32,943 nt of DNA from Arcobacter sp. (GTDB lineage: Bacteria > Campylobacterota > Campylobacteria > Campylobacterales > Arcobacteraceae): NCBI GenBank assembly GCA_002685075.1, contig NYWO01000102.1, positions 1-32,943 on the forward strand, written 5' to 3'. Positions within the stretch are counted from its first letter, which is position 1. Each line of letters starts with the position of its first letter. Position numbers and translations under genes: made by a program. Shown here one piece after another: positions 960 through 15,397 of this stretch. The notes beneath the pieces are model-generated. The model had not been told where the DNA came from. It was given only the letters and a program-made list of their open reading frames with translations, and did no database searches.

Positions 960-987
960 AGAGATAAGTTTTCTTATCTCTATTTTT
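960..987 (+). terminator. Hairpin terminator of the small ORF unit
   Basis: Perfect 9-bp stem AGAGATAAG/CTTATCTCT with a TTTT loop, followed by ATTTTT. It lies between the small ORF and the end of the convergent TonB receptor gene, whose stop codon is at 986-988. It could work weakly in the other direction too. Confidence 0.8.
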
Positions 988-2992
988 AAAACTTATATTT
1001 AAAAGTTACTAAAAACTCTCTGCCTTTTGTAAAAGCTCCATTTTTAAAACTAGTTAATGTTGAACCTGCTGGTATTCTATTGTCTCTATCTAGTAAATTT
1101 GTAATATTTAAATTTAATGATGTATTTTTATTAAAATGATGATTTATATTTGTTGTTACATTTATATTAGCATTACTATTTTTCCCGTATCTAGTTGATG
1201 TTCCATTGATAATTGGGGCTTTCATAGAACTTATATAGTTAAGTAATAAAGAGTATCTTGTCTTATCTTTTAAGTATGACATTTGTATTTTTCCTAAAAC
1301 TTTAGGTGAAAAATCTGGATCATAGTTTGTTGAACCATCACTTGTTTGATTTTTTGTATCTTGTAAGGTAATACTTGATGATGTTTCAAAGTTATAGTTT
1401 GGTTTATATGTTACTGCAAATTCAAAACCTTTTGTAAACTTATTGCCAATAGCAGAGGTTGGAAGACTTGAACCATTTTGAGTAAATAAACTGATATTTT
1501 TAGCTTCATTATAAAAAATGGAAGAGTTGATTTGATATTTTTTTGATAGATATATATAGTTTATCTCACTACTATTTATCTCTTCAAATTTATCTATACT
1601 AGAGTAGGTAAGCTGATTTGCTTTTCCATATAAAAACTTTAAGTGATTATTTGAATTTATATGATAAATGGCACTGAATTCAGGTAAATAATCTGCTTTA
1701 CTATCTATATTTCCAGTAATTATTTGATCAAATTCTGTATCACTTAAATCATTATCTTGTTTAAAAGTCATAAGAAAATCATTTCTTTTTGTATATCTTA
1801 TTCCACTATTAAATTCAAATTTATCAGAAAACTTATACTGTAGTTTAGAATACAAATCATAACTTGAATAAGTATAATTTCTTTCATTTGCAATTGTATT
1901 TAGTGTGGCATTTAAATTATAATCGATATCTTCATAACTTGAACCTATCAAAAATTTTGTTTTATCATTTACAATATAGTTTAAATGTATATCAAATTGG
2001 TTTCTTTTTACTTTATTATGATTATTTACAGTGGCATTTTCATCTTCTAATATATTAAAATCATCTATATCATAACTCTTTTGAGATGTAATAAAGTTAG
2101 CTTTATAACTTAAGTTCTCACTTAATTCATCTTCATATGTAAGTGCTAAAGATTTCTCTACTTGTTCTACTTCATTTCCATTTCTATATGTTGGTTCTAT
2201 ATATATCCCATAATTTGTTTCAGAGATATTAATATCAGTAGTTAAGTTTTTATATCTATGTGAAAAATCTAAAGTTTTATATTTATTTTCAAGTAAACCT
2301 TTTAAATTTTCTACAGCACTTGATGGTCTTGAACTATAATAACTTGAATCAAAAGCATCTTCTAAATCACCATCAATTCCATCTGTTTGATAAAAACTAG
2401 TATTTAATGTAAATCCACCATCTTCATTTTTATGATTTACTCTTGCAAATACTTTTTCTTGTCCATTATTACCTTTTGAAAGTGAAACTATATTTTTTTC
2501 ATTAAAATCATTAGTTATTATATTAATAGAACCATACATTGAGTTACTTCCATAAGTAACGGCTTGTGGTCCTTTTATAATCTCAATCCTATCAATTGCT
2601 TCAATAGGAGTTGCAAAAAAGTTTCTATTTGATGTTCCACCTCTTGGAATCCTAAGCGGTGTTATTGTATTGTTGTTAATCATTAATTTAAAAGAGGACC
2701 CTAAACTTCCTCTAGAACCTATTTGGAAATGCTCAGTATCATCAACTATAAATAATCCTGGAATATGTTTTAATAACTCCTCAAGTGTTGAATAATTATA
2801 TTTTTCAATCTCTTTTCTTGTAATTACTGTAATATTTGCAGGAATTTCTTCTATTCTTTGATAACTCTTTGTTGCTGAATATATTTTTATATTCATTAAC
2901 TCTTCAAGTGATAAGTCATCTAAAGAGTCTAAATTACTTTGGTTTGCATATAGTACATTTGCAAGCAATAGTGTACTTAATATAATTTTCAT
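986..2992 (-). CDS. TonB-dependent outer-membrane receptor
   Basis: A 668-residue outer-membrane receptor. The first ~17 residues form a signal peptide (MKIILSTLLLANVLYA). A short N-terminal segment with SLEELMNIKIYSATK is typical of the family, and a plug domain follows at about residues 45-165 (ITVITRKEIE, then IEIIKGPQAVTYGSN). The rest is beta-strand-rich barrel and ends in phenylalanine (LVTFKYKF), the usual BAM signal. Substrate cannot be told from sequence. It is the last gene of a four-gene operon: its ATG overlaps the kinase stop as ATGA, and its AGGAG ribosome binding site lies inside the kinase gene. The co-transcribed kinase, YfiR-like protein and EAL regulator suggest that ligand uptake or binding is tied to signalling (inference). 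No tonB, exbB or exbD lies in the operon. Confidence 0.93.
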   Translation of the reverse strand: MKIILSTLLLANVLYANQSNLDSLDDLSLEELMNIKIYSATKSYQRIEEIPANITVITRKEIEKYNYSTLEELLKHIPGLFIVDDTEHFQIGSRGSLGSSFKLMINNNTITPLRIPRGGTSNRNFFATPIEAIDRIEIIKGPQAVTYGSNSMYGSINIITNDFNEKNIVSLSKGNNGQEKVFARVNHKNEDGGFTLNTSFYQTDGIDGDLEDAFDSSYYSSRPSSAVENLKGLLENKYKTLDFSHRYKNLTTDINISETNYGIYIEPTYRNGNEVEQVEKSLALTYEDELSENLSYKANFITSQKSYDIDDFNILEDENATVNNHNKVKRNQFDIHLNYIVNDKTKFLIGSSYEDIDYNLNATLNTIANERNYTYSSYDLYSKLQYKFSDKFEFNSGIRYTKRNDFLMTFKQDNDLSDTEFDQIITGNIDSKADYLPEFSAIYHINSNNHLKFLYGKANQLTYSSIDKFEEINSSEINYIYLSKKYQINSSIFYNEAKNISLFTQNGSSLPTSAIGNKFTKGFEFAVTYKPNYNFETSSSITLQDTKNQTSDGSTNYDPDFSPKVLGKIQMSYLKDKTRYSLLLNYISSMKAPIINGTSTRYGKNSNANINVTTNINHHFNKNTSLNLNITNLLDRDNRIPAGSTLTSFKNGAFTKGREFLVTFKYKF

Positions 2993-4572
2993 ATTTTCTC
3001 CTCATAAGAGTATGTTCTAGGTATTTTAATAATAAACTGTGTACTTATGTTCTCTTCACTTTTAAATGTAAGAGAGCCTTTTAATTTTTGATAAATAAGA
3101 TTATAAACAATATTTAATCCAAGTCCCGTTCCACCTGCATTTCTTTTTGTTGTGATAAATGGTTCAAATATCTTTTCTTTTATACTTAAATCAATACCTT
3201 TTCCGTTATCTTCATAAACTATCTTAATCATATCTTCCTCTATTGTAATCATTACATTTATTTTTGCATTAGTTCTAAAATCGCTAAAACCATGAATTAT
3301 TGAATTTTGTATTAGGTTATTAAATATTTGGGCAATAACTCCTGGTGATGTTTTAATTAATAAATTATCATCTTCATTTTTAATTATAATTTCTACAGGT
3401 ATTGTTTTTAATTTATTATTATTAGTTAGGAATATTTCTTCAATATAATTTTTAATATTAAATTCTCTAACATCATTTGTTACTTGATCTACAGAAATTT
3501 GTTTAAAACTTTTTATTAACTCAGATGAATAATGTAAACTCTTTATTAGTAAAGATGAACTATCATTTAATACCTTTAGCCTTGATTCCATAACAGATCG
3601 TTTTAATGTTCCATTTTTCAAGTCTTGTAGCAAATAGTTTGATTCTTTTTTTATTATAGAACTACTTGTTATTGCATTTCCTAATGGAGTATTAACTTCA
3701 TGGGCTATTCCACTTACTAGATTACCTAGGGCTGACATCTTTTCTGATTGAATTAATTGTTCTTGAGCCTCTTTTAACTCTTTTAAACTCTTCTCTAATA
3801 GTTCTCTTTTTTTATTTAATTCATTAGTTCTGTATGATACTTGGTTCTCTAAATTTACTGTTGATTTTTCCATATCCATAAGAAGTGAATTATATGCTTT
3901 ATATAAAGAACCAATTTCATTTTTTGAATCATGACTTACTCTTATTTTATAATTTCTAGTTTTTGCAATTTCTTCTGAAGTTTTTGCAAGATGAAGAATT
4001 GGTTTTAATAAATAATCACTTAAAAGAATTGAAACCCCATATGTTATTATTAATAATATAATTGTAAAAAATATAATATCATTAAAAACTTTTTTTAATA
4101 TAGTAGTGATAATTTTTGTAGATTTTTCAATATATAAAGTTCCATAAATATTTCCTTGATGTTTAAGTGCTATAGTTATTTTTAATGTACCAAAATTTAA
4201 AAAATCCTTATTCATATTATCAAAGTAATATTCTTTAAATTCTGGATTTATTTCACTTTGCTTTTTAGAAGGATTATATTGTGCAAATATATTTTTATCA
4301 TTATCAAAAATTATAACTCTTAATATATTATGATCTTTATTTAGTTTATTTAGTGTTTCTTCTGCCCCTTCTATATCATTGAAGATTAAAGGGGTAACAC
4401 TAAATTCTGCTAGTAAATTGGCTTCAATTAGAGAGTTTTGTAAAAAACTATCCTTCTTTTGTTCAATACTTGAAGAGAAATTAAAATATGTAACTATAAA
4501 GACAATGAATGAGAATATGATGATAAAAGTAATTACTAATTGACTTCGTATAGATAAGCTTATTATTTTCAT
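2989..4572 (-). CDS. Membrane sensor histidine kinase with HAMP domain
   Basis: A 527-residue sensor kinase. Transmembrane helix 1 is near residues 11-29, a periplasmic sensing region follows to about 162, helix 2 is at about 163-185, then a HAMP segment and a coiled coil (RELLEKSLKELKEAQEQL). The dimerisation box carries the phospho-accepting histidine at about residue 291 (GIAHEVNTPLGNA). The catalytic domain shows an N box (IFNNLIQNSIIHGF), G1 (DNGKGI) and G2 (GGTGLGLNIVYNL), so it should be active. There is no receiver domain. The gene lies two bases after the YfiR-like gene and overlaps the receptor start by four bases. The likely partner is the REC-EAL regulator encoded first in the operon. 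The periplasmic domain may read the YfiR-like protein or the receptor (inference). Confidence 0.93.
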   Translation of the reverse strand: MKIISLSIRSQLVITFIIIFSFIVFIVTYFNFSSSIEQKKDSFLQNSLIEANLLAEFSVTPLIFNDIEGAEETLNKLNKDHNILRVIIFDNDKNIFAQYNPSKKQSEINPEFKEYYFDNMNKDFLNFGTLKITIALKHQGNIYGTLYIEKSTKIITTILKKVFNDIIFFTIILLIITYGVSILLSDYLLKPILHLAKTSEEIAKTRNYKIRVSHDSKNEIGSLYKAYNSLLMDMEKSTVNLENQVSYRTNELNKKRELLEKSLKELKEAQEQLIQSEKMSALGNLVSGIAHEVNTPLGNAITSSSIIKKESNYLLQDLKNGTLKRSVMESRLKVLNDSSSLLIKSLHYSSELIKSFKQISVDQVTNDVREFNIKNYIEEIFLTNNNKLKTIPVEIIIKNEDDNLLIKTSPGVIAQIFNNLIQNSIIHGFSDFRTNAKINVMITIEEDMIKIVYEDNGKGIDLSIKEKIFEPFITTKRNAGGTGLGLNIVYNLIYQKLKGSLTFKSEENISTQFIIKIPRTYSYEEKI

Positions 4573-4574
4573 AA

Positions 4575-5090
4575 TTACTTCTTATCCTTTACGATTTTTG
4601 CAAGTTTTAATATTTTATAACTTGCTTTTAAATTAGCATTTTCTAAAGATTCTTGATTTATTATAAATTTAATTCTTTTTTCTTTATAATAGATACCTAA
4701 ATGCATACCCTGATATACATCATCAGGAAATTCAGTAATTATTAAAATTGGTTTATTTTTTATTCTTTTTAGAATTAAGTCAATATTTACAGAAGATTCT
4801 TTTGTAAAATAAATAAGATTTAAATCATCAATCTCATCTTGTGTAAAGTTATTAATATTATATATTTTTATATCTAAGTTATGAATCTTTTTATTACTAT
4901 AAAATATTTCCATATCTTTTGATATTTTTTCATTTTTGTAAATACCAATTTTAAAATTATCTTTTATTTCAGGCCATTGAATAAATTGTGTTATTTTTTC
5001 TATTAAAGAAATTTTTATTGAACTTGAAGCGTCAATATTTGAGGATATTAGGATTATAAAAAAGATTGTTTTAATTAGTAGCTTAAACAT
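4575..5090 (-). CDS. YfiR-like (DUF4154) periplasmic protein
   Basis: A 171-residue exported protein with an N-terminal signal segment (KTIFFIILISSNIDASS). The pattern matches the YfiR/DUF4154 family: an early KITQFIQWPE stretch (the family's F-x-x-W-P), LIYFTKES in the middle, and late KIKFIIN-like and SLENANLKASYKILKLAKIV strands and helix. In Pseudomonas, YfiR represses the membrane diguanylate cyclase YfiN from the periplasm. Here no YfiN-like cyclase is adjacent, so the target is probably the neighbouring histidine kinase (inference). No cysteines are visible, so the disulfide control known for Pseudomonas YfiR is unlikely. Gene gaps on both sides are two bases. Confidence 0.8.
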   Translation of the reverse strand: MFKLLIKTIFFIILISSNIDASSSIKISLIEKITQFIQWPEIKDNFKIGIYKNEKISKDMEIFYSNKKIHNLDIKIYNINNFTQDEIDDLNLIYFTKESSVNIDLILKRIKNKPILIITEFPDDVYQGMHLGIYYKEKRIKFIINQESLENANLKASYKILKLAKIVKDKK

Positions 5091-5092
5091 AA

Positions 5093-6796
5093 TTATTTTA
5101 AGTCACCTTCAGGTTTACCAAAATAATATCCTTGAGCATAATCAATACCCATACTACTTACTTTATCAAAAACTTCTTTGGAATGAACGTACTCTGCTAT
5201 TGTTTTTACTTGTATTTTTTTAGAATATAAATAAATTGCCTCAGTTATATACTCTGAATATTTATCTTTATGAATATCTTTTATAAAAGCACCATCTATT
5301 TTTACACTATTTATATCTAATGCTTTTAATTGAGAAAAGTTTGAATATTCAGCTCCAAAGTCATCAATACTTAGTAAAAATCCAGCTTTTTTTAGTTGTA
5401 TTAAATTTTCTTGTGCATATATGTTTTTGCTAATACTAGCTTCTTCTAAAATTTCTAAAGAAATTCGTGATGGATTTATATCATATTGATTACAATGTAT
5501 AAGTAAGTTTTCTACAAACTTTTTATTCATTAAATCATGATTTGTAATATTTACAGAAAATTCTAAATTATTAGAAGAAAATTTTTGGCAAGCTTGTTCA
5601 AATACGATTTTTGTAATTTTTGTTAATAATCCAGCATTTCTAGCAGCTCCTAAAAAATGAATGGGAGTGAAAATCTCATCATTATATTTTAGTCGTACTA
5701 ATGTTTCATATTTAACTATCATTTGTGTTTTACAGTCAACTATTGGTTGATAGTAAGTAAGTATATTCTTTTCTTCAATTGCTTTTGCAAGTCTTTTTGA
5801 CCATAAAAGATTGTTATTTATTATCTTGATAGTAGCTAATTCTTCTGAATAGAACTCTATTTTATTATCTTGCTTTTTTCTTGAAGCAAATACTGCAATT
5901 TCTGCTTTTGGTAGTAAATCTTTTGTTGAATTAGAAATACCAATACTTACACTTAAAAATAGTCTTAAATCCTCTATATTAAAATATTTTGAACTTAAAC
6001 GAGATTTTATTTTTAATGCAGTATCTAATAAGTACTTATCTTCTTTATTTTCAAAAAGTAAAACAAACTTATCTGATTCTATTCTATATATTGACTCTGT
6101 ATCTACTTTACTATCTTGTAATATATTTGCAATTTTGCATAAAATTTGATCCCCAACTAAATAGCCATATGCATTATTAATAGAACTAAAAGAGTCAACA
6201 TCAATAAGTATTAATGAACCATTTTTTACTTTCTTTAAATCACTATATAATTTAGATCTTGAGTAGAGGTTTGTTATTGAGTCATTTGTTAAGCTATTAA
6301 AAAGTTCATTTTTTTTATTTTCAAGTTCACTTATTTGTTTATATTGTGCAAGTGCAGTTCTTGTAGTTGTATATAATTTTGTAGTTGTAAGTTCTGTTTT
6401 TTCTTTATAATCATTTATATCATATTTATTAATTATCTCATGTTCAGGTGCATAACCTGGTTGTCCTGTCCTTATAATAATTCTAATTAATTTATTTCCT
6501 AAGACATTTCTAATATAATCAACTACTTGTAATCCTGCATCATTTGATTCCATAACAATATCAAGTAATACAAATGCAAAATCAGAATTATCTAATAATA
6601 AATTTTTAGCTTCTTTTGCAGAGTATGCTGAAATTAAATCTAATTCTCTATTATCAAATGAAAAATCATGAAGTGCTAATTTTGTTACAGCATGAACTTC
6701 TTTATCATCATCAATAATTAAAACTTTCCACTTGCTATTTTGATTATTTATATTAATACTGTCCTCTTCTATAAAAATTAAGTCATCATTATTCAT
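5093..6796 (-). CDS. Response regulator: REC, degenerate GGDEF, EAL
   Basis: A 567-residue cytoplasmic regulator. The N-terminal receiver has an acidic cluster in VLIIDDDKE, the predicted phospho-acceptor D79 (FVLLDIVME) and RTGQPGYAPEHE, a variant receiver seen with output domains. The GGDEF domain (about 170-325) is degenerate: the active-site loop reads YRIESDKFVLLF instead of a GGDEF core, so cyclase activity is unlikely. The C-terminal EAL domain (about 335-565) keeps its catalytic set: ETL for EAL, NITNHD, EILEE, DDFGAEYS, VKIDG, AEYV and AQGYYFG. It should hydrolyse c-di-GMP, with the GGDEF domain perhaps binding GTP as a switch. It is the first gene of the operon and probably receives phosphate from the kinase encoded at 2989-4572. 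Confidence 0.92.
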   Translation of the reverse strand: MNNDDLIFIEEDSININNQNSKWKVLIIDDDKEVHAVTKLALHDFSFDNRELDLISAYSAKEAKNLLLDNSDFAFVLLDIVMESNDAGLQVVDYIRNVLGNKLIRIIIRTGQPGYAPEHEIINKYDINDYKEKTELTTTKLYTTTRTALAQYKQISELENKKNELFNSLTNDSITNLYSRSKLYSDLKKVKNGSLILIDVDSFSSINNAYGYLVGDQILCKIANILQDSKVDTESIYRIESDKFVLLFENKEDKYLLDTALKIKSRLSSKYFNIEDLRLFLSVSIGISNSTKDLLPKAEIAVFASRKKQDNKIEFYSEELATIKIINNNLLWSKRLAKAIEEKNILTYYQPIVDCKTQMIVKYETLVRLKYNDEIFTPIHFLGAARNAGLLTKITKIVFEQACQKFSSNNLEFSVNITNHDLMNKKFVENLLIHCNQYDINPSRISLEILEEASISKNIYAQENLIQLKKAGFLLSIDDFGAEYSNFSQLKALDINSVKIDGAFIKDIHKDKYSEYITEAIYLYSKKIQVKTIAEYVHSKEVFDKVSSMGIDYAQGYYFGKPEGDLK

Positions 6797-8027: not shown

Positions 8028-8084
8028 TAATCACCACTTTTTAAAATCTTAAGCCTAATATAGATAAAATCCAATTTATATAAT

Positions 8085-8230
8085 TAATCAGGTGAATAAC
8101 TTTTCAGTAAATTCATGGGAAATAGGTGAAAATCCAATACTGCCCCCGCAACGGTAATTTGTGTAAAACACAATAAGTCCGGAGACCGACCTTTTTAGTT
8201 TTCGATGCAAATCAGGCGGGGTGTCCTGAA
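8085..8230 (+). promoter_or_regulatory. Cobalamin riboswitch
   Basis: The conserved core of the AdoCbl/cobalamin aptamer is readable: an AGGTG near 8090, GGGAA at 8117, GGTGAAAATCC at 8125-8135, ACTGCCCCCGCAACGGTAA at 8139-8157, and AAGTCCGGAGACCGAC at 8175-8190. The kissing-loop interaction is also visible: CCCCGC (8144-8149) is complementary to GCGGGG (8216-8221), which begins at the 3' base of the first arm of a downstream stem TCAGG/CCTGA (8212-8216, 8225-8229) and runs into its loop. Candidate -10 elements lie at 8065-8070 (TAAAAT) or 8079-8084 (TATAAT). About 70 bases separate the aptamer from the AGGAAG ribosome binding site of the CobN-like gene. A bulged AT hairpin at about 8230-8258 could be part of the switch. 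Cobalamin would be expected to repress the downstream operon. Confidence 0.93.
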
Positions 8231-8310
8231 AGTAAGAAATAGTTTATTCTTTACTTACCTTATTTTACTCCAATTGACTTTTGTATTAATTTTTATTAAT
8301 AGGAAGTTTA

Positions 8311-11300
8311 ATGTCACTACTCAAACATTTTTTAGTGTTTTTTCTAATGTTTATTTTTTCAATAAATATTTTCGCCCAAGAAAATAGTAAATCTATTTTC
8401 ATTGTTGTTTCAGATAGGTCAGCTGCAGGATTAAATTCTGGTGCTAATTATTATTTGAAAAACTCTAATGATAAGATTTCTGTACGTACTGTTTCTCAAA
8501 TTTTGAATATGAGTAATACAAAGATTCAAGAAGAAATAAACAAAGCTGATATTGTTTTATATGCAGCTGTTTTTGGTGATGTAGTTGAAAAACTATTATC
8601 AAAAAACTATGAGGGTGTTAAAACTCTTAGCTCTCTTCAAGGAGATAGACGATTAATCTCTTTGAATAAAGATATTTCAAAAGCAGATTATACTTCTATT
8701 CCTTCAAAACTATTACTTAAAGATAAAGAGATATCTTCATACCAAGAATTACTGAACTTAAAACAAAAAGAGTTTAGAAACTATTCATATTACCTACAAG
8801 CAAGAGCTTATTGGGATAATAGAGGTAGTCAAAATATTTCAAACCTTTTTTCTTTTTTATCAAATAGTACATTAGATAAAAAAACATGGCCAAAGGTTTT
8901 AGAATTAAAACAAGTAAGATATTTTTTAAATGCAAATGCTTCTAAAACATATGAAAGTATAAGTGAATTAAAAAAAGATTTAAAAGATGATACAAATGTA
9001 ATATTTATTTTAGATAATGATAGAGCAGATAATTCAAGTGATTGGAAAGTTCATGAAGAAATTTATAAACAATCAAAATTACAAGTAGTATCAATTTTAA
9101 GTTCATGGGGAAAACCAAGTTTTCAAGCAGTTCATAGTTTAGAAGAATTAACAAAAAGTTTTTCTTCAAAACAAGCTTTTTCAATTATCTCTTTACAAGA
9201 TTTTGTAATAGGTGGTGGTGAGTCAAGACAAGATGTTACTAAAAGTTTAGAGAACTTAAATGTACCCGTTTTAAAAGCATTAAGAGTTCTTGATACAAAT
9301 GCATTATCTTATTCTTTATCATCTCAAGGCTTACCTGTTAATTCTGTTCATTATCGTATTTCTATGCCTGAACTTCAAGGAATAGGGCAAGTTTATATCT
9401 TAGCTATGAATAATGATTCTTCACTTGATTTACAAACAGGTGCTTTAATCATTGATACAAAATTAATGAAAGATGAAATTAAAAATATTATCAAAAAATC
9501 AAAAGCATGGATGAATTTAAAAACTAAAGATAATAGTGATAAAAAAATTGCAGTAATTTATTATAACCATCCTCCAGGAAGACATAATATTGGGGCAGAT
9601 AATTTGAATGTTCCAAAGTCACTATTTAAAATATTAAATGAGTTAAAAACTCAAGGCTATGATGTAGGTGAGTTGCCAAATTCTAGTGAAGAGTTATTAG
9701 ATCTTTTACAAGCAAAAGGTGTTAACTTACCAAATGATAAAAAAGCATTAAAAGAACAAAGCCAAAAAGTGGCAAAAGTAACTCTTGAAGACTATGAAGC
9801 GTATTTAAAAACACTTCCTTTAGATATTCAAGCTGAAATGAAATTTGGACCATTAAGTGCACTTCATGTAAAAATTGAAAGCTTTTTAAATGAAGATATA
9901 AAAACAGTAAAAGGTTCAAATAAAGCACCTTCTTATAAAGCAATAAAAGATTATATGCATAAAACTATTTCTAATTTACATCATGCACTTGATGGTGTTA
10001 GAAGTAAGAGTAGACAAAGGTCAATTAATTTATTAAAACAATTAGAAGATGAATATGAAAAAGTTTTAAAATTAAGTCAAGATGAAAAAGAGTTCTCTTT
10101 AGAAAACTCTACTGCATTAAAAGATGCAATTATTAAAATGGAAATAGAAGGTATTAGAGGTTGGGGTGCTGCTCCTGGTGTTGTTATGGTTTGGGATAAT
10201 GAACTTCTTGTACCTTCTGTAACTTTTGGAAATGTGATTTTAGCACCACAACCACCACGTGGTTGGGAGTTAAATGAAGAACTTCTTCATGCAAATTTAT
10301 CTTTTCCTCCAACTCATCAATATCTAGCTTTTTATTACTACATGAAAGATAAATTTAAAGCTGATGGTATTATTCATGTGGGTCGGCATTCAACTTATGA
10401 ATTTCTTCCACGAAAGAGTGTTGGTCTAAGTGCAAGTGATTACCCATCACTTATTATTGAGGGAATTCCTAGTATTTATCCATATATTGTAGATGGAGTA
10501 GGTGAGGGTATTCAAGCTAAAAGAAGAGGTCAAGCTATTATGATTGACCACTTAACTCCACCTTTAGCAACTACAAAACTTTACGATAATTTATTAGAAT
10601 TAAGACAGTTAATTGAAAGTGCAGAAGCAGCAAGTGATGATAATATTAGAAAGAATGCTATTAATAAAATAAAAGTATCAATTGATAAAATGAACTTACG
10701 AGCTGAATTAATTGAGAGTATGGACGAAGAATTACAAGTTAGAGGTATTGGTTTTGATGAGGTTGATGATGAGTTTTTACTTCATGAAGTAGGTCATTAT
10801 TTAACACATTTACAAGAAGAGTTTATGCCTTTAGGACTACACACCTTTGGACAAGATTGGACTTCAGAAGCAATTGATACGATGATTGAATCTATGAGTA
10901 AAGACTCTATAGTTTCCCAAGAAACAAAACAAAACTTAATTATTTCACCTAAAAAAGAGTTAGAATCTTTAGTAAATGCTTTAAATGGTGGATATGTAAG
11001 TGCAGGAAAAGGAAATGACCCAATTAGAACCGCTTCTGCACTTCCTACTGGACGAAATTTCTATGCTTTAGATGGTAGTTTAATTCCTTCAACTATTGCT
11101 TATGAAATAGGTGTTAAATTAGCACAAGATATAAGAGCTAAAAAAGAAAAAAACTCTCATAAAAAAGAAGCAGTTATTCTTTGGGCTTCAGATACAGTAA
11201 GAGATGAAGGTGCAATGGTTGCTTTTGGTCTTGATTTATTAGGTGTAAAACCTATTTGGAATAGTAGAGGAATTTTAAAAGGTTTAGAAAAACTTTCTTT

Positions 11301-12705
11301 AGATGAAAAAAGAACAAGTAGAGTTGATGTAGTATTTACATCATCTGGATTATTTAGAGATTTATATGGTTCTCAATTAGCATTATTAAATAAAGCAGTA
11401 TTAATGGCAATTGATTCTTCTTACGATGTAATAATTAATAAATATCCAGCTTTAACTTTATCATTAGAAAGTGCTTTATCAACTTTAGGTGAATTAAAAG
11501 TAGGTGGACATGAGAGTTTAGAAGTAAATGCTGTTGCTTTAAATTGGGTAGAAGAAGCAAGAGAAATATTGAAAAATAATCCTAATATGAATCTTGAAGA
11601 AGTTGGTAAAAAAGCATCTTATAGAGTTTTTGCAACTGCTCCTGGCTCTTACGGTGCAGGAATAAATAGATTAGTTGAACGTTCAGGTTCTTGGAATGAT
11701 AGAAAAGAATTAGGTGATGTATTTATTAAAAGAGTAGGATATGCTTATTCAGAAGATTTAGAAGGACAAGTTGCCCTTGATAGTTATAAAAGACAATTAA
11801 AAAATGTTGAAAACACATACTTAGGACGAGCTAGTAATCTATATGGTTTAATTGATAATAATGATACTTTTGATTATTTAGGAGGTCTAAATTTAGCTAT
11901 TGAAACAGTTACAGGAAAACAACCAAACTCTTTTGTAATTGATAATTCAAATTCAAAGAATGTTAAAATTGAAGCACTTCAAACAGCACTTTTAAGTGAG
12001 TTACGAGGAAGATTTTTAAATCCACAATGGATCAAACCTTTAATGAGTGAAGGTTATAGTGGTGCACGAACTATGGGAAGTGAATTTATAGAGTATCTTT
12101 GGGGATGGCAAGTTACTAGTCCTGAGATTATTACTAATTGGGTTTGGGAAGATGTAAAAGCTGTTTATATTGATGATAAATTAGATTTAGGTTTAGATGA
12201 GTTTTTATCGTCAAATCATCAAGTTCAAGTTCAAACAAATATGTTAGCAGTAATGTTAGTTGCAATACAAAAAGACTTTTGGAAAGCAGATGAAAAAACA
12301 CAAAAAGAATTAGCTCAGAAGTTTACACAAAATATAATCAAAAATGGAATACCAGGAAGTGGTCATACTCATGCAAATCATCCTATTTATGATTTTGTGA
12401 AAACTAAGATAGACAAAGAATCTGCAAAAAAACTAGAAAAAATACTTAATGAATCAAGACTTGATAATGTAGCTTTAAAAACTACTCCAAGTACTATTCA
12501 AGAGATTAACTTAGAAGAAAAACTACAAAAACAAGAAATAAAAAAAGTAGAAGAGTTAAATACAAAAGAGAATGAAAAAATAAAAGAAGAGTCTAAAAAT
12601 GAATCAGATGAAGAATCATTTATAAAATATTTTATATTAGCAGCAATATTAATTCTTTTAGCAGGACTAATTAAATCAATCTTCTTTTCAAGAGTAAAAG
12701 GATAA
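8311..12705 (+). CDS. cobN: CobN-like chelatase, exported and membrane-anchored
   Basis: A 1464-residue protein of the CobN/magnesium-chelatase H-subunit family. Family motifs include WGAAPGVVMVWD, ILAPQPPRGWE, HLTPPLATTKLYDNL and, at about 689-702, HVGRHSTYEFLPRK, where classical CobN usually reads HGTxEWLPGK. Unlike cytoplasmic CobN it starts with a signal peptide (LVFFLMFIFSINIFAQE, to about residue 23) and ends with a charged, probably coiled-coil linker (EIKKVEELNTKENEKIKEES) and one transmembrane helix at about 1437-1457. The bulk should therefore sit in the periplasm, tethered to the inner membrane. No CobS/CobT ATPase is adjacent. The next genes encode ExbB-like and DUF2149 proteins, and a cobalamin riboswitch precedes it. 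Roles to consider are corrinoid or metal-tetrapyrrole insertion, removal or uptake, as proposed for related HmuS-type proteins; which one is not decided by sequence. An AGGAAG ribosome binding site supports the start. Confidence 0.9.
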   Translation: MSLLKHFLVFFLMFIFSINIFAQENSKSIFIVVSDRSAAGLNSGANYYLKNSNDKISVRTVSQILNMSNTKIQEEINKADIVLYAAVFGDVVEKLLSKNYEGVKTLSSLQGDRRLISLNKDISKADYTSIPSKLLLKDKEISSYQELLNLKQKEFRNYSYYLQARAYWDNRGSQNISNLFSFLSNSTLDKKTWPKVLELKQVRYFLNANASKTYESISELKKDLKDDTNVIFILDNDRADNSSDWKVHEEIYKQSKLQVVSILSSWGKPSFQAVHSLEELTKSFSSKQAFSIISLQDFVIGGGESRQDVTKSLENLNVPVLKALRVLDTNALSYSLSSQGLPVNSVHYRISMPELQGIGQVYILAMNNDSSLDLQTGALIIDTKLMKDEIKNIIKKSKAWMNLKTKDNSDKKIAVIYYNHPPGRHNIGADNLNVPKSLFKILNELKTQGYDVGELPNSSEELLDLLQAKGVNLPNDKKALKEQSQKVAKVTLEDYEAYLKTLPLDIQAEMKFGPLSALHVKIESFLNEDIKTVKGSNKAPSYKAIKDYMHKTISNLHHALDGVRSKSRQRSINLLKQLEDEYEKVLKLSQDEKEFSLENSTALKDAIIKMEIEGIRGWGAAPGVVMVWDNELLVPSVTFGNVILAPQPPRGWELNEELLHANLSFPPTHQYLAFYYYMKDKFKADGIIHVGRHSTYEFLPRKSVGLSASDYPSLIIEGIPSIYPYIVDGVGEGIQAKRRGQAIMIDHLTPPLATTKLYDNLLELRQLIESAEAASDDNIRKNAINKIKVSIDKMNLRAELIESMDEELQVRGIGFDEVDDEFLLHEVGHYLTHLQEEFMPLGLHTFGQDWTSEAIDTMIESMSKDSIVSQETKQNLIISPKKELESLVNALNGGYVSAGKGNDPIRTASALPTGRNFYALDGSLIPSTIAYEIGVKLAQDIRAKKEKNSHKKEAVILWASDTVRDEGAMVAFGLDLLGVKPIWNSRGILKGLEKLSLDEKRTSRVDVVFTSSGLFRDLYGSQLALLNKAVLMAIDSSYDVIINKYPALTLSLESALSTLGELKVGGHESLEVNAVALNWVEEAREILKNNPNMNLEEVGKKASYRVFATAPGSYGAGINRLVERSGSWNDRKELGDVFIKRVGYAYSEDLEGQVALDSYKRQLKNVENTYLGRASNLYGLIDNNDTFDYLGGLNLAIETVTGKQPNSFVIDNSNSKNVKIEALQTALLSELRGRFLNPQWIKPLMSEGYSGARTMGSEFIEYLWGWQVTSPEIITNWVWEDVKAVYIDDKLDLGLDEFLSSNHQVQVQTNMLAVMLVAIQKDFWKADEKTQKELAQKFTQNIIKNGIPGSGHTHANHPIYDFVKTKIDKESAKKLEKILNESRLDNVALKTTPSTIQEINLEEKLQKQEIKKVEELNTKENEKIKEESKNESDEESFIKYFILAAILILLAGLIKSIFFSRVKG

Positions 12706-12707
12706 TT

Positions 12708-13169
12708 ATGTTTTCATCAATATCTGTAGGATTAATGCACCAAATCACAGCTATTTTATTAGAACCTGTTTCGTGGGCTTTAATATTTTTTGTTGTTTGG
12801 GGTTTATATGAAGTTGGTATAAGTATAGGTGAGCGAACTGTTGAGATAAATAAACTTATCAAAACAAATGATATTCCTTATGTTTTATCAATTGCAAAAA
12901 AAAGAATTGAAAGAGCTGATTTTATTACAAGATTAGCTCCTATGTTAGGACTTATGGGAACATTGATTCCATTAGGTCCTGGACTAGCAGCTCTTGGTGA
13001 TGGTGATGTTAAAATCTTAAGTACGGCTATGTCTGTTGCTTTTGATACAACTGTTTTAGGTTTATTAGCTGGAATGACTGGTTTTATAATTTCAAGGCTT
13101 CGAAAAAGATGGTATGACAAGGCTTTAACAATTATGGAAGAGCAAGTGGAAAAGAAATATGAAAAATAG
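12708..13169 (+). CDS. MotA/TolQ/ExbB-family proton-channel protein
   Basis: A 153-residue inner-membrane protein, short for the family. One hydrophobic segment is at about residues 15-37 (WALIFFVVWGLYEVG). A second long region has the ExbB/TolQ signature (RLAPMLGLMGTLIPLGPGL) and then a segment with VAFDTTVLGLLAGMTGFIIS, ending in basic residues. In the family these helices form the pentamer around an ExbD/TolR/MotB partner and conduct protons. The start is two bases after the CobN-like stop and the end overlaps the next gene by 11 bases, so the three are translated together. It most likely energises the anchored CobN-like protein rather than TonB (inference from context). Confidence 0.85.
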   Translation: MFSSISVGLMHQITAILLEPVSWALIFFVVWGLYEVGISIGERTVEINKLIKTNDIPYVLSIAKKRIERADFITRLAPMLGLMGTLIPLGPGLAALGDGDVKILSTAMSVAFDTTVLGLLAGMTGFIISRLRKRWYDKALTIMEEQVEKKYEK

Positions 13170-13464
13170 ATTTTCAAGTGATCATTTTATAAAAGAAGAT
13201 GATGAACCTTTAGGTCCATTAGCAAATCTTGTTGATATTATTTTAGTTTTTGCTTGTGGTTTAATAGCAGCTCTTGTAGCAATTAGTCCTAATTTACAAG
13301 AACATTTTAATGTTGAAGATTCTCAAAAAATTACCCAAGGTAAAGAGTTGGCAAATGTACCTAAAAATATAAAAGATAGTTTAGATTCAAAAGAAGGATT
13401 TAAATCTTTAGGTCAAGTATATAAAGACCCAAAGACTGGAAAATTAATTTTAATTAGTGAATAG
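13159..13464 (+). CDS. DUF2149 protein, ExbD-like topology
   Basis: A 101-residue protein matching the DUF2149 pattern DDEPLGPLANLVDIILVFACG. A short polar N-terminus precedes one transmembrane helix (about 20-43) and a small periplasmic tail. The helix begins with L-V-D-I-I-L-V, which resembles the P-L-V-D-V-M-L-V of ExbD/TolR, where the aspartate is the proton-carrying residue. Together with the ExbB-like partner just upstream (11-base overlap), this supports an ExbB/ExbD-type motor. DUF2149 genes are known to sit next to CobN-like and ExbB-like genes. The family has no settled function. It is the last gene of the riboswitch operon and ends 22 bases from a convergent gene. Confidence 0.85.
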   Translation: MKNRFSSDHFIKEDDEPLGPLANLVDIILVFACGLIAALVAISPNLQEHFNVEDSQKITQGKELANVPKNIKDSLDSKEGFKSLGQVYKDPKTGKLILISE

Positions 13465-14815: not shown

Positions 14816-15397
14816 TTATAAATTAATTAAATCTTCTTTATTAGTTATTTGTTTTTCAATAACTTGAATACCTTTTGCAAGAAGAGAATTTTTTAAACCT
14901 TCTCCTATTTTTGTAGATAAAAATATATTTACATTAAAATCTAAAAATATTTGAGGTAAAACAATTGCAGGTTTTGAAGCTTTTACATAAACATCACTTT
15001 CAATTGATTTTATTAAAGTTACTTCATTATCTTCAATTTTGTATATAGATATATATTGGTCTGTTGATAATATAGATTCAAAGTTATCTTTACTTGCAGA
15101 ACAAATTGCAACTATATAAGGTGTATTTGCATCTTCAATAGAAATTTTATTTCCATAAACAATTGCTCTTGTTAACTTTTGTCTTGCATTTTTTAAAATT
15201 CTAGTAAATGTAGGCCTTGAAACCTTCATACTTTCTGCTGCTTTTTCTTGATATAAGTCTAAAATATCCATTAAATAAATAGCTTCCATTTCTTCATCTA
15301 ATAGATGAGTAATCCCATTGTATGATTTATTCTCGGGTATATAATCTTTAAATGCTGGTTTAAAGACTAAATTTCTTTTTGTTTTTTCTCTTCCCAT
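14816..15397 (-). CDS. DUF134 HTH regulator with NifX-like domain
   Basis: A 193-residue protein. The N-terminal part (about 1-90) fits DUF134 DNA-binding proteins: LLDEEMEAIYLMDILDLYQEKAAE, then a sigma-factor-like helix-turn-helix in MKVSRPTFTRILKNARQKL. The C-terminal part (about 95-190) resembles the NifX/NifB-type dinitrogenase iron-molybdenum cofactor domain (IVAICSASKDNFESILS, VFLSTKIGEGLKNSLLAKGI). In DUF134 proteins this pairing suggests a cluster- or metal-responsive regulator. It is divergent from the DUF4492-cydAB operon, which ends in another NifX-like gene. The shared intergenic region holds a perfect 15-bp inverted repeat that is its most likely operator (inference). There are two cysteine-poor domains and no ligand site can be named. 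A CCTTGT-derived ACAAGGATA ribosome binding site precedes the ATG. Confidence 0.85.
   Translation of the reverse strand: MGREKTKRNLVFKPAFKDYIPENKSYNGITHLLDEEMEAIYLMDILDLYQEKAAESMKVSRPTFTRILKNARQKLTRAIVYGNKISIEDANTPYIVAICSASKDNFESILSTDQYISIYKIEDNEVTLIKSIESDVYVKASKPAIVLPQIFLDFNVNIFLSTKIGEGLKNSLLAKGIQVIEKQITNKEDLINL

Follow-up and report, generated by a model that had tools for sequence, protein, structure and literature searches.

A predicted operon, consisting of a cobalamin riboswitch followed by genes for an exported CobN-like chelatase subunit, an ExbB-like protein and a DUF2149 protein, was identified on a contig of 32,943 nucleotides (the whole of the DNA analysed, hereafter the window). 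The source, a marine bacterium represented by a 2.68-Mb assembly that is 86.5% complete, belongs to Poseidonibacter (Arcobacteraceae, Campylobacterota), its nearest named relative being Poseidonibacter lekithochrous (96% identity). We propose, with the chances about evenly balanced, that the three gene products form a periplasmic, B12-repressed chelatase for corrinoid salvage, with a dedicated proton-driven motor replacing the AAA+ ATPase. The sequence shows a riboswitch, export features, a fixed gene trio and a corrin-type active-site residue, and ring synthesis, CobST and ChlID are missing from the window genome and its complete sister genomes; the coupling of the motor, the substrate and the direction of the reaction are what we infer.

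Locus layout and the cobalamin riboswitch

The following features were assigned to the locus:

8073..8208, + strand: cobalamin (B12) riboswitch aptamer (RF00174; cmscan 64.7 bits, E 5.5e-14, gathering score 31.5)
8311..12705, + strand: CobN-like class I chelatase subunit, predicted to be exported, 1464 aa (PF02514, 808.9 bits)
8311..8376, + strand: signal-peptide-like N-terminus of about 22 aa, ending in IFA before QE (hydropathy; cleavage site placed by eye)
10381..10416, + strand: GRHSTYEFLPRK signature, containing HSTYEFLPRK (His-693 aligns with HmuS His-538)
11848..11886, + strand: LIDNNDTFDYLGG motif (Asp-1185 aligns with HmuS His-1209, the ChlH His and the CobN Asp)
12625..12675, + strand: C-terminal transmembrane (TM) helix after a charged linker (hydropathy)
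12708..13169, + strand: ExbB/TolQ/MotA-like proton-channel protein, 153 aa, HmuU-like (PF01618, 41.6 bits)
13159..13464, + strand: DUF2149 protein, 101 aa, with a single TM helix, putatively ExbD-like, HmuV-like (PF09919, 44.7 bits)

The gap between the riboswitch and the cobN ORF is 102 nt, the ExbB-like gene starts 2 nt past the cobN stop codon and the DUF2149 gene overlaps the ExbB-like gene. An initial annotation had recognised the riboswitch, which the Rfam score bears out, and the CobN-like gene, but had overlooked the ExbB-like and DUF2149 genes, which are the most informative elements here.

Cobalamin riboswitches of this kind switch genes off when B12 is plentiful. The element described here was the only one of its class found in the window genome; folding of the leader against shuffled sequences gave no significant structure (z -0.16) and did not resolve the expression platform. 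Among 84,980 species genomes scanned, 80 close relatives of the CobN-like protein were recovered, spanning Campylobacterota, Gammaproteobacteria, Nitrospirota, Nitrospinota and Myxococcota. A two-motif scan, which gave 1 chance match in 2.9 Mb of shuffled control sequence, placed a riboswitch motif upstream of cobN in 54 of 76 relatives' loci (within about 600 nt in 41 of them), and Rfam confirmed one further riboswitch, at locus L114. Orthologues with 62-96% identity were present in 8 of 100 related genomes, the window's included, all of them Arcobacteraceae, and each of these eight carries exactly one cobalamin riboswitch, situated just upstream of cobN. The same arrangement was found in three further Arcobacteraceae (G126, G137 and G139). 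Separately, a strong cobalamin riboswitch (92.7 bits; L064, 242-417) was identified in a ring-making Arcobacteraceae genome (G037) that does not have this CobN.

Within the window, no hmuY-like or receptor gene lies beside the trio, the sole receptor (986-2992) being encoded on the opposite strand as part of a signalling cluster. This cluster (986-6796, minus strand) comprises genes for the TonB-dependent receptor, a CHASE8/HAMP histidine kinase, a YfiR-like protein (TOL_0243 type) and a GGDEF/EAL response regulator, and resembles a c-di-GMP signalling system linked to the outer membrane. Furthermore, the window encodes at 14816-15397 a DUF134 DNA-binding domain fused to a dinitrogenase iron-molybdenum cofactor (NifX-like) domain.

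The exported CobN-like subunit

CobN-Mg_chel (PF02514) was the only Pfam domain detected in the 1464-aa ORF, whose product is the only PF02514 protein and CobN homologue of the window genome; the possibility of a chance ORF was considered and rejected. Comparison with the PDB gave HmuS (9D26) as the best match, with ChlH and CobN next. The best NCBIfam models were those for CobN, yet the protein scores under every NCBIfam CobN cut-off. Its N-terminus reads MSLLKHFLVFFLMFIFSINIFA, followed after the predicted cleavage site by QE, and its C-terminus, EESFIKYFILAAILILLAGLIKSIFFSRVKG, is preceded by a linker rich in K, E and N, with positive residues after the TM helix suggesting that the C-terminus is cytoplasmic. 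The hydrophobic stretches at the two ends are shared by the relatives as judged by hydropathy, in agreement with the envelope location that the initial annotation had deduced from them.

The motif HSTYEFLPRK had been described as an alteration of the conserved HGTxEWLPGK. It was read correctly, but does not support a changed reaction: GRHSTYEFLP is near-invariant, occurring with the catalytic His in nearly all of the 80 relatives, and the motif is therefore a signature of the clade and not a product of decay. A degenerate CobN was considered and rejected as well.

A tree of 37 rows was built from exported CobN-like proteins, cytoplasmic CobN and BchH. The exported proteins (the window protein's clade, HmuS and those of Geobacter (Trichlorobacter) lovleyi, Runella, Azospirillum and others) separated from cytoplasmic CobN and BchH, and the window protein's clade received 100% support. 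Forcing this clade together with cytoplasmic CobN was rejected (AU test, p-AU 0.0017). The phylogeny that had been suggested as a check therefore places the protein outside classical cytoplasmic CobN, and evidence against export of its N-terminal segment was likewise not obtained. Gene neighbours divide in the same manner: cytoplasmic CobN genes lie next to genes for AAA/VWA or ChlID proteins and encode no TM helix, whereas the exported ones have ExbB and DUF2149. Sinorhizobium cobN has neither kind of neighbour adjacent to it, its CobST being encoded elsewhere in the genome.

The position corresponding to HmuS His-1209 (LSLDHxxEFMGG in HmuS) is His in HmuS and ChlH/BchH and Asp in the solved CobN structures (9UK9, 7C6O); it was found to be Asp in 15 of 15 clade members. 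The equivalent of the catalytic His-538 of HmuS is retained as His-693. However, the axial haem ligands Met-79 and His-254 of HmuS correspond to Val and Asp in the window protein, and similarly in 14 clade members, in an alignment that is weak across domains I-II. The Met-rich insertion of HmuS is also absent, with no more than 4 Met in any 60 residues of the window protein, although two of three HmuS-type controls likewise had no strong one. Identity with the HmuS-type haem dechelatase was rejected on these hallmarks (Met-79, His-254, His-1209 and the insertion). As the HmuS ligands and insertion are missing, the 1209 site holds Asp, the tree sets the protein apart and its partners are ExbB and DUF2149, it is by the defining features of the two neither HmuS nor a classical CobN.

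Exported CobN genes outside the clade were also observed. A second type, 26-28% identical, occurs in five other Arcobacteraceae (G016, G036, G039, G040 and G049; loci L054-L060), with an HGTQEW motif, Asp at the HmuS-1209 site and adjacent ExbB and DUF2149 genes; DUF4198, a TonB receptor or an RND pump is encoded nearby at several of these loci. An exported CobN-ExbB-DUF2149 set of Azospirillum (L184, 4266-8997) has His at the HmuS-1209 site and is possibly a haem-type member outside Bacteroidota. On a Runella plasmid (L069, 6174-11162) such a set forms part of a cluster for NiFe-hydrogenase maturation, next to genes for a TonB receptor and for a protein annotated as a urease accessory factor, a hint that a nickel-linked version may exist.

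Partner proteins, gene neighbourhoods and host genomes

The AlphaFold model of the ExbB-like protein has a pLDDT of 86, and its top 43 Foldseek matches were all ExbB/TolQ chains (E about 0.01, prob 1.0). For DUF2149, profile comparison with ExbD returned only a 12-column TM motif with an Asp, this residue (Asp-26) being invariant in 24 aligned relatives; a fold search with its low-confidence model gave no tie to ExbD. The ExbD-like nature that we infer for DUF2149 rests on this short motif and, as a second support, on a statement about HmuV by Mesle et al. 2023 (PMC10100974).

Using a profile search of all frames for the ExbB-like gene, both partner genes were found to adjoin cobN in every relative whose downstream sequence was long enough (78/78), as well as in the window, and the unbroken CobN copies among these possess the hydrophobic C-terminal segment. 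CobN and DUF2149 co-occur in the same 13 of the 100 related genomes; in the other 87, DUF2149 was absent and CobN gave just two matches, both weak and short. A copy on a Marinobacter plasmid (L065, 10001-14257) has jointly lost the C-terminal TM helix, ExbB and DUF2149 while keeping a signal-like N-terminus. In T. lovleyi, where the operon follows tandem cobalamin riboswitches, a separate exbB-exbD-tonB set lies beside the ExbB-DUF2149 pair. DUF2149 was found also in Methanosarcina acetivorans, an archaeon without an outer membrane. The ever-present pair, the TM anchor with its linker, the joint loss in Marinobacter, the separate set of T. lovleyi and the occurrence in M. acetivorans argue that the pair would serve CobN itself and not TonB.

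In the aerobic pathway, cobalt is inserted between the steps of CobB and CobO, the place of CobN-CobST. In some relatives, CobN-ExbB-DUF2149 occupies this slot in the gene order. The Colwellia order is riboswitch, unknown gene, CobB, CobN, ExbB, DUF2149, CobO; that of Nitrospina is BtuF-BtuD-BtuC-CobQ-BtuB-CobN-ExbB-DUF2149-CobB-CobO-CobS-BluB-CobD-CbiB; and that of the Marinobacter plasmid, behind a riboswitch, is BtuB-BtuF-BtuC-BtuD-CobB-CobN-CobO-CobQ-BluB.

The ring-synthesis marker CbiC/CobH was absent from 53 of 57 host genomes and present in four, while CobQ was found in all host genomes examined. The window genome, in which gene absence was judged by family searches, has no CbiC but does have a BtuB-BtuF-BtuD-BtuC-CobB operon and a CobS-CobD-CobQ-CbiB cluster. 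Together, the riboswitch, this BtuB operon and the corrin-type Asp bear out the corrinoid context that had been proposed for the locus. The reported lack of the AAA+ partners CobS/CobT also held: CobT (PF06213) was found neither in the window genome and its complete sister genomes nor in any Arcobacteraceae tested, and no ChlID-type subunit scored above the cut-off in any of the 57 host genomes. CobT was absent from 45 of 53 genomes, the CobT-like matches in the remaining eight being from outside the Arcobacteraceae. CobB, CobQ and CbiB are also present in trio-less Arcobacteraceae, one of which (G003) is likewise without ring synthesis; the trio is thus an addition to salvage and not a requirement for it. 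The association of the trio with ring loss among Arcobacteraceae was weak (0/8 vs 18/53, roughly p 0.05, calculated by hand).

Proposed function and comparison with known systems

Class I chelatases require an ATP-driven AAA+ motor and work in the cytoplasm, and the periplasm contains no ATP. In the proposed mechanism, the operon would be off in B12, and a periplasmic CobN-type chelatase anchored in the inner membrane would be made when B12 is short. Its substrate would be corrinoids scavenged through BtuB by bacteria that are unable to build the corrin ring. The ExbB-like protein and DUF2149, as an ExbD-like partner, would form a dedicated proton-driven motor coupled to the C-terminal TM helix of CobN, standing in for CobST/ChlID, which drive the cytoplasmic chelatases with ATP. 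Most probably the reaction would consist in placing cobalt into salvaged corrin rings, or in another metal repair of them, after which the product would be imported by BtuFCD and finished by CobB, CobO, CobQ and CbiB.

The initial annotation had raised metal removal or transport, in preference to insertion, as a possibility. We consider cobalt insertion likelier than removal, because the gene is B12-repressed and its hosts mostly lack ring synthesis, so that stripping cobalt when B12 is short would be self-defeating, and because the trio of some relatives sits in the CobB-to-CobO slot. In its most specific form, the trio would be a cobaltochelatase driven by the proton motive force, an ExbB/ExbD-like channel taking the place of AAA+ and cobalt being inserted in the periplasm into scavenged metal-free or damaged corrin rings. 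This is put forward as a tentative possibility; if true, cobalt import would not be needed for ring-less bacteria to complete B12. The chemistry itself may not depend on the motor, since HmuS strips haem of its iron in vitro when neither its membrane helices nor ExbB/DUF2149 are present (PMC12583661).

A rather doubtful alternative is that of an energised corrinoid-handling device, a TonB turned around, in which the chelatase fold binds corrinoids and ExbB/DUF2149 pulls them off BtuB or passes them to BtuF. The C-terminal TM helix after a flexible charged linker, together with a proton channel, does mimic TonB-ExbB-ExbD, TonB-dependent receptors are common neighbours, and a role in corrinoid transport was proposed for the T. 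lovleyi cluster (PMC3403914). However, the metal-site His and the corrin-type Asp are kept throughout, and HmuS is an enzyme. The separate exbB-exbD-tonB set alongside in T. lovleyi and the presence of DUF2149 in an archaeon without an outer membrane also speak against such a device.

It is unlikely that the protein is an HmuS-type dechelatase that strips imported haem or cobalt tetrapyrroles of their metal in the periplasm, with the riboswitch merely tying it to cobalt or B12 status. Architecture and partners match hmuS-hmuU-hmuV, HmuS is the top PDB match, HmuS falls within the single branch formed by the exported CobN-like proteins, and HmuS is known to take iron from haem (PMC12583661). 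Against this stand the substitutions Met-79 to Val, His-254 to Asp and His-1209 to Asp, the missing Met-rich insertion and HmuY, the cobalamin riboswitch and the B12 gene neighbours of relatives, while a ring-less cell short of B12 would, by removing cobalt, destroy the very thing it needs. A classical cytoplasmic CobN, with its N-terminus mis-read and CobST missed in an incomplete assembly, is highly improbable: despite the corrin-type active site, the best NCBIfam models and the slot by CobB and CobO in some relatives, grouping with cytoplasmic CobN was rejected by the AU test, the TM helix and ExbB/DUF2149 run throughout the relatives, neither CobT nor ChlID was found in complete sister genomes and the score lies under every NCBIfam CobN cut-off.

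Surveys of B12 genes have noted cobalt-chelatase annotations in genomes without most of ring synthesis, ascribing them to overlap with other chelatases (PMC6461909). The clade described here provides a concrete case: a chelatase unit, predicted to be exported and repressed by B12, in bacteria of several phyla that are auxotrophic for B12 and in many cases marine. Should the motor reading of the trio be true, class I chelatases would be powered in two different ways, and the annotation of a gene as CobN should not be taken as a sign that B12 is made. Furthermore, Asp or His at the HmuS-1209 position is a simple residue that may predict a corrin or porphyrin substrate.

HmuS, BtuS, riboswitch-linked hmu-like operons and an unexplained G. 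lovleyi CobN have already been published. In the open-licence literature searched, no account was found of this clade, of its corrin-type active site or of the CobB-CobO slot in ring-less genomes, and no proton-motor replacement for CobST was described. The hmu-like operons of Bacteroides fragilis (Mesle et al. 2023, PMC10100974) and the BtuS proteins (Rodionov 2003, as cited in PMC6460266) share with the window a cobalamin riboswitch before an exported CobN-like gene, and a role in cobalamin or metalloporphyrin salvage was proposed for them. The B. fragilis operons are of Bacteroidota sequence with two HmuR copies, and neither a motor hypothesis nor a CobB/CobO slot or a pattern of ring loss was found in these accounts.

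The CobN of G. lovleyi plasmid pSZ77 (Wagner et al. 2012, PMC3403914) resembles that of the window in lacking CobST, in having ExbB/DUF2149, TonB and B12 genes adjacent and in being preceded by riboswitches, there in tandem. It differs in its HGTHEWLSGK motif, in its place on another branch of the exported clade and in its neighbouring DUF2162 and second ExbB-ExbD-TonB set. With HmuS of Bacteroidota and its partners HmuU/HmuV (Nath et al. 2025, PMC12583661), the window protein shares the exported CobN fold, the TM anchor and the ExbB-like and DUF2149 partners, but it occupies a separate branch of the tree and is accompanied by a riboswitch and B12 genes instead of HmuY. With the aerobic cobaltochelatases CobN-CobS-CobT and CobN-ChlID it shares the CobN fold, the catalytic His, the corrin-type Asp motif and the CobB-CobO pathway slot; those systems are cytoplasmic and have ATP-driven AAA+ partners, whereas the unit of the window, in a genome without ring synthesis, is predicted to be exported and to act with ExbB and DUF2149.
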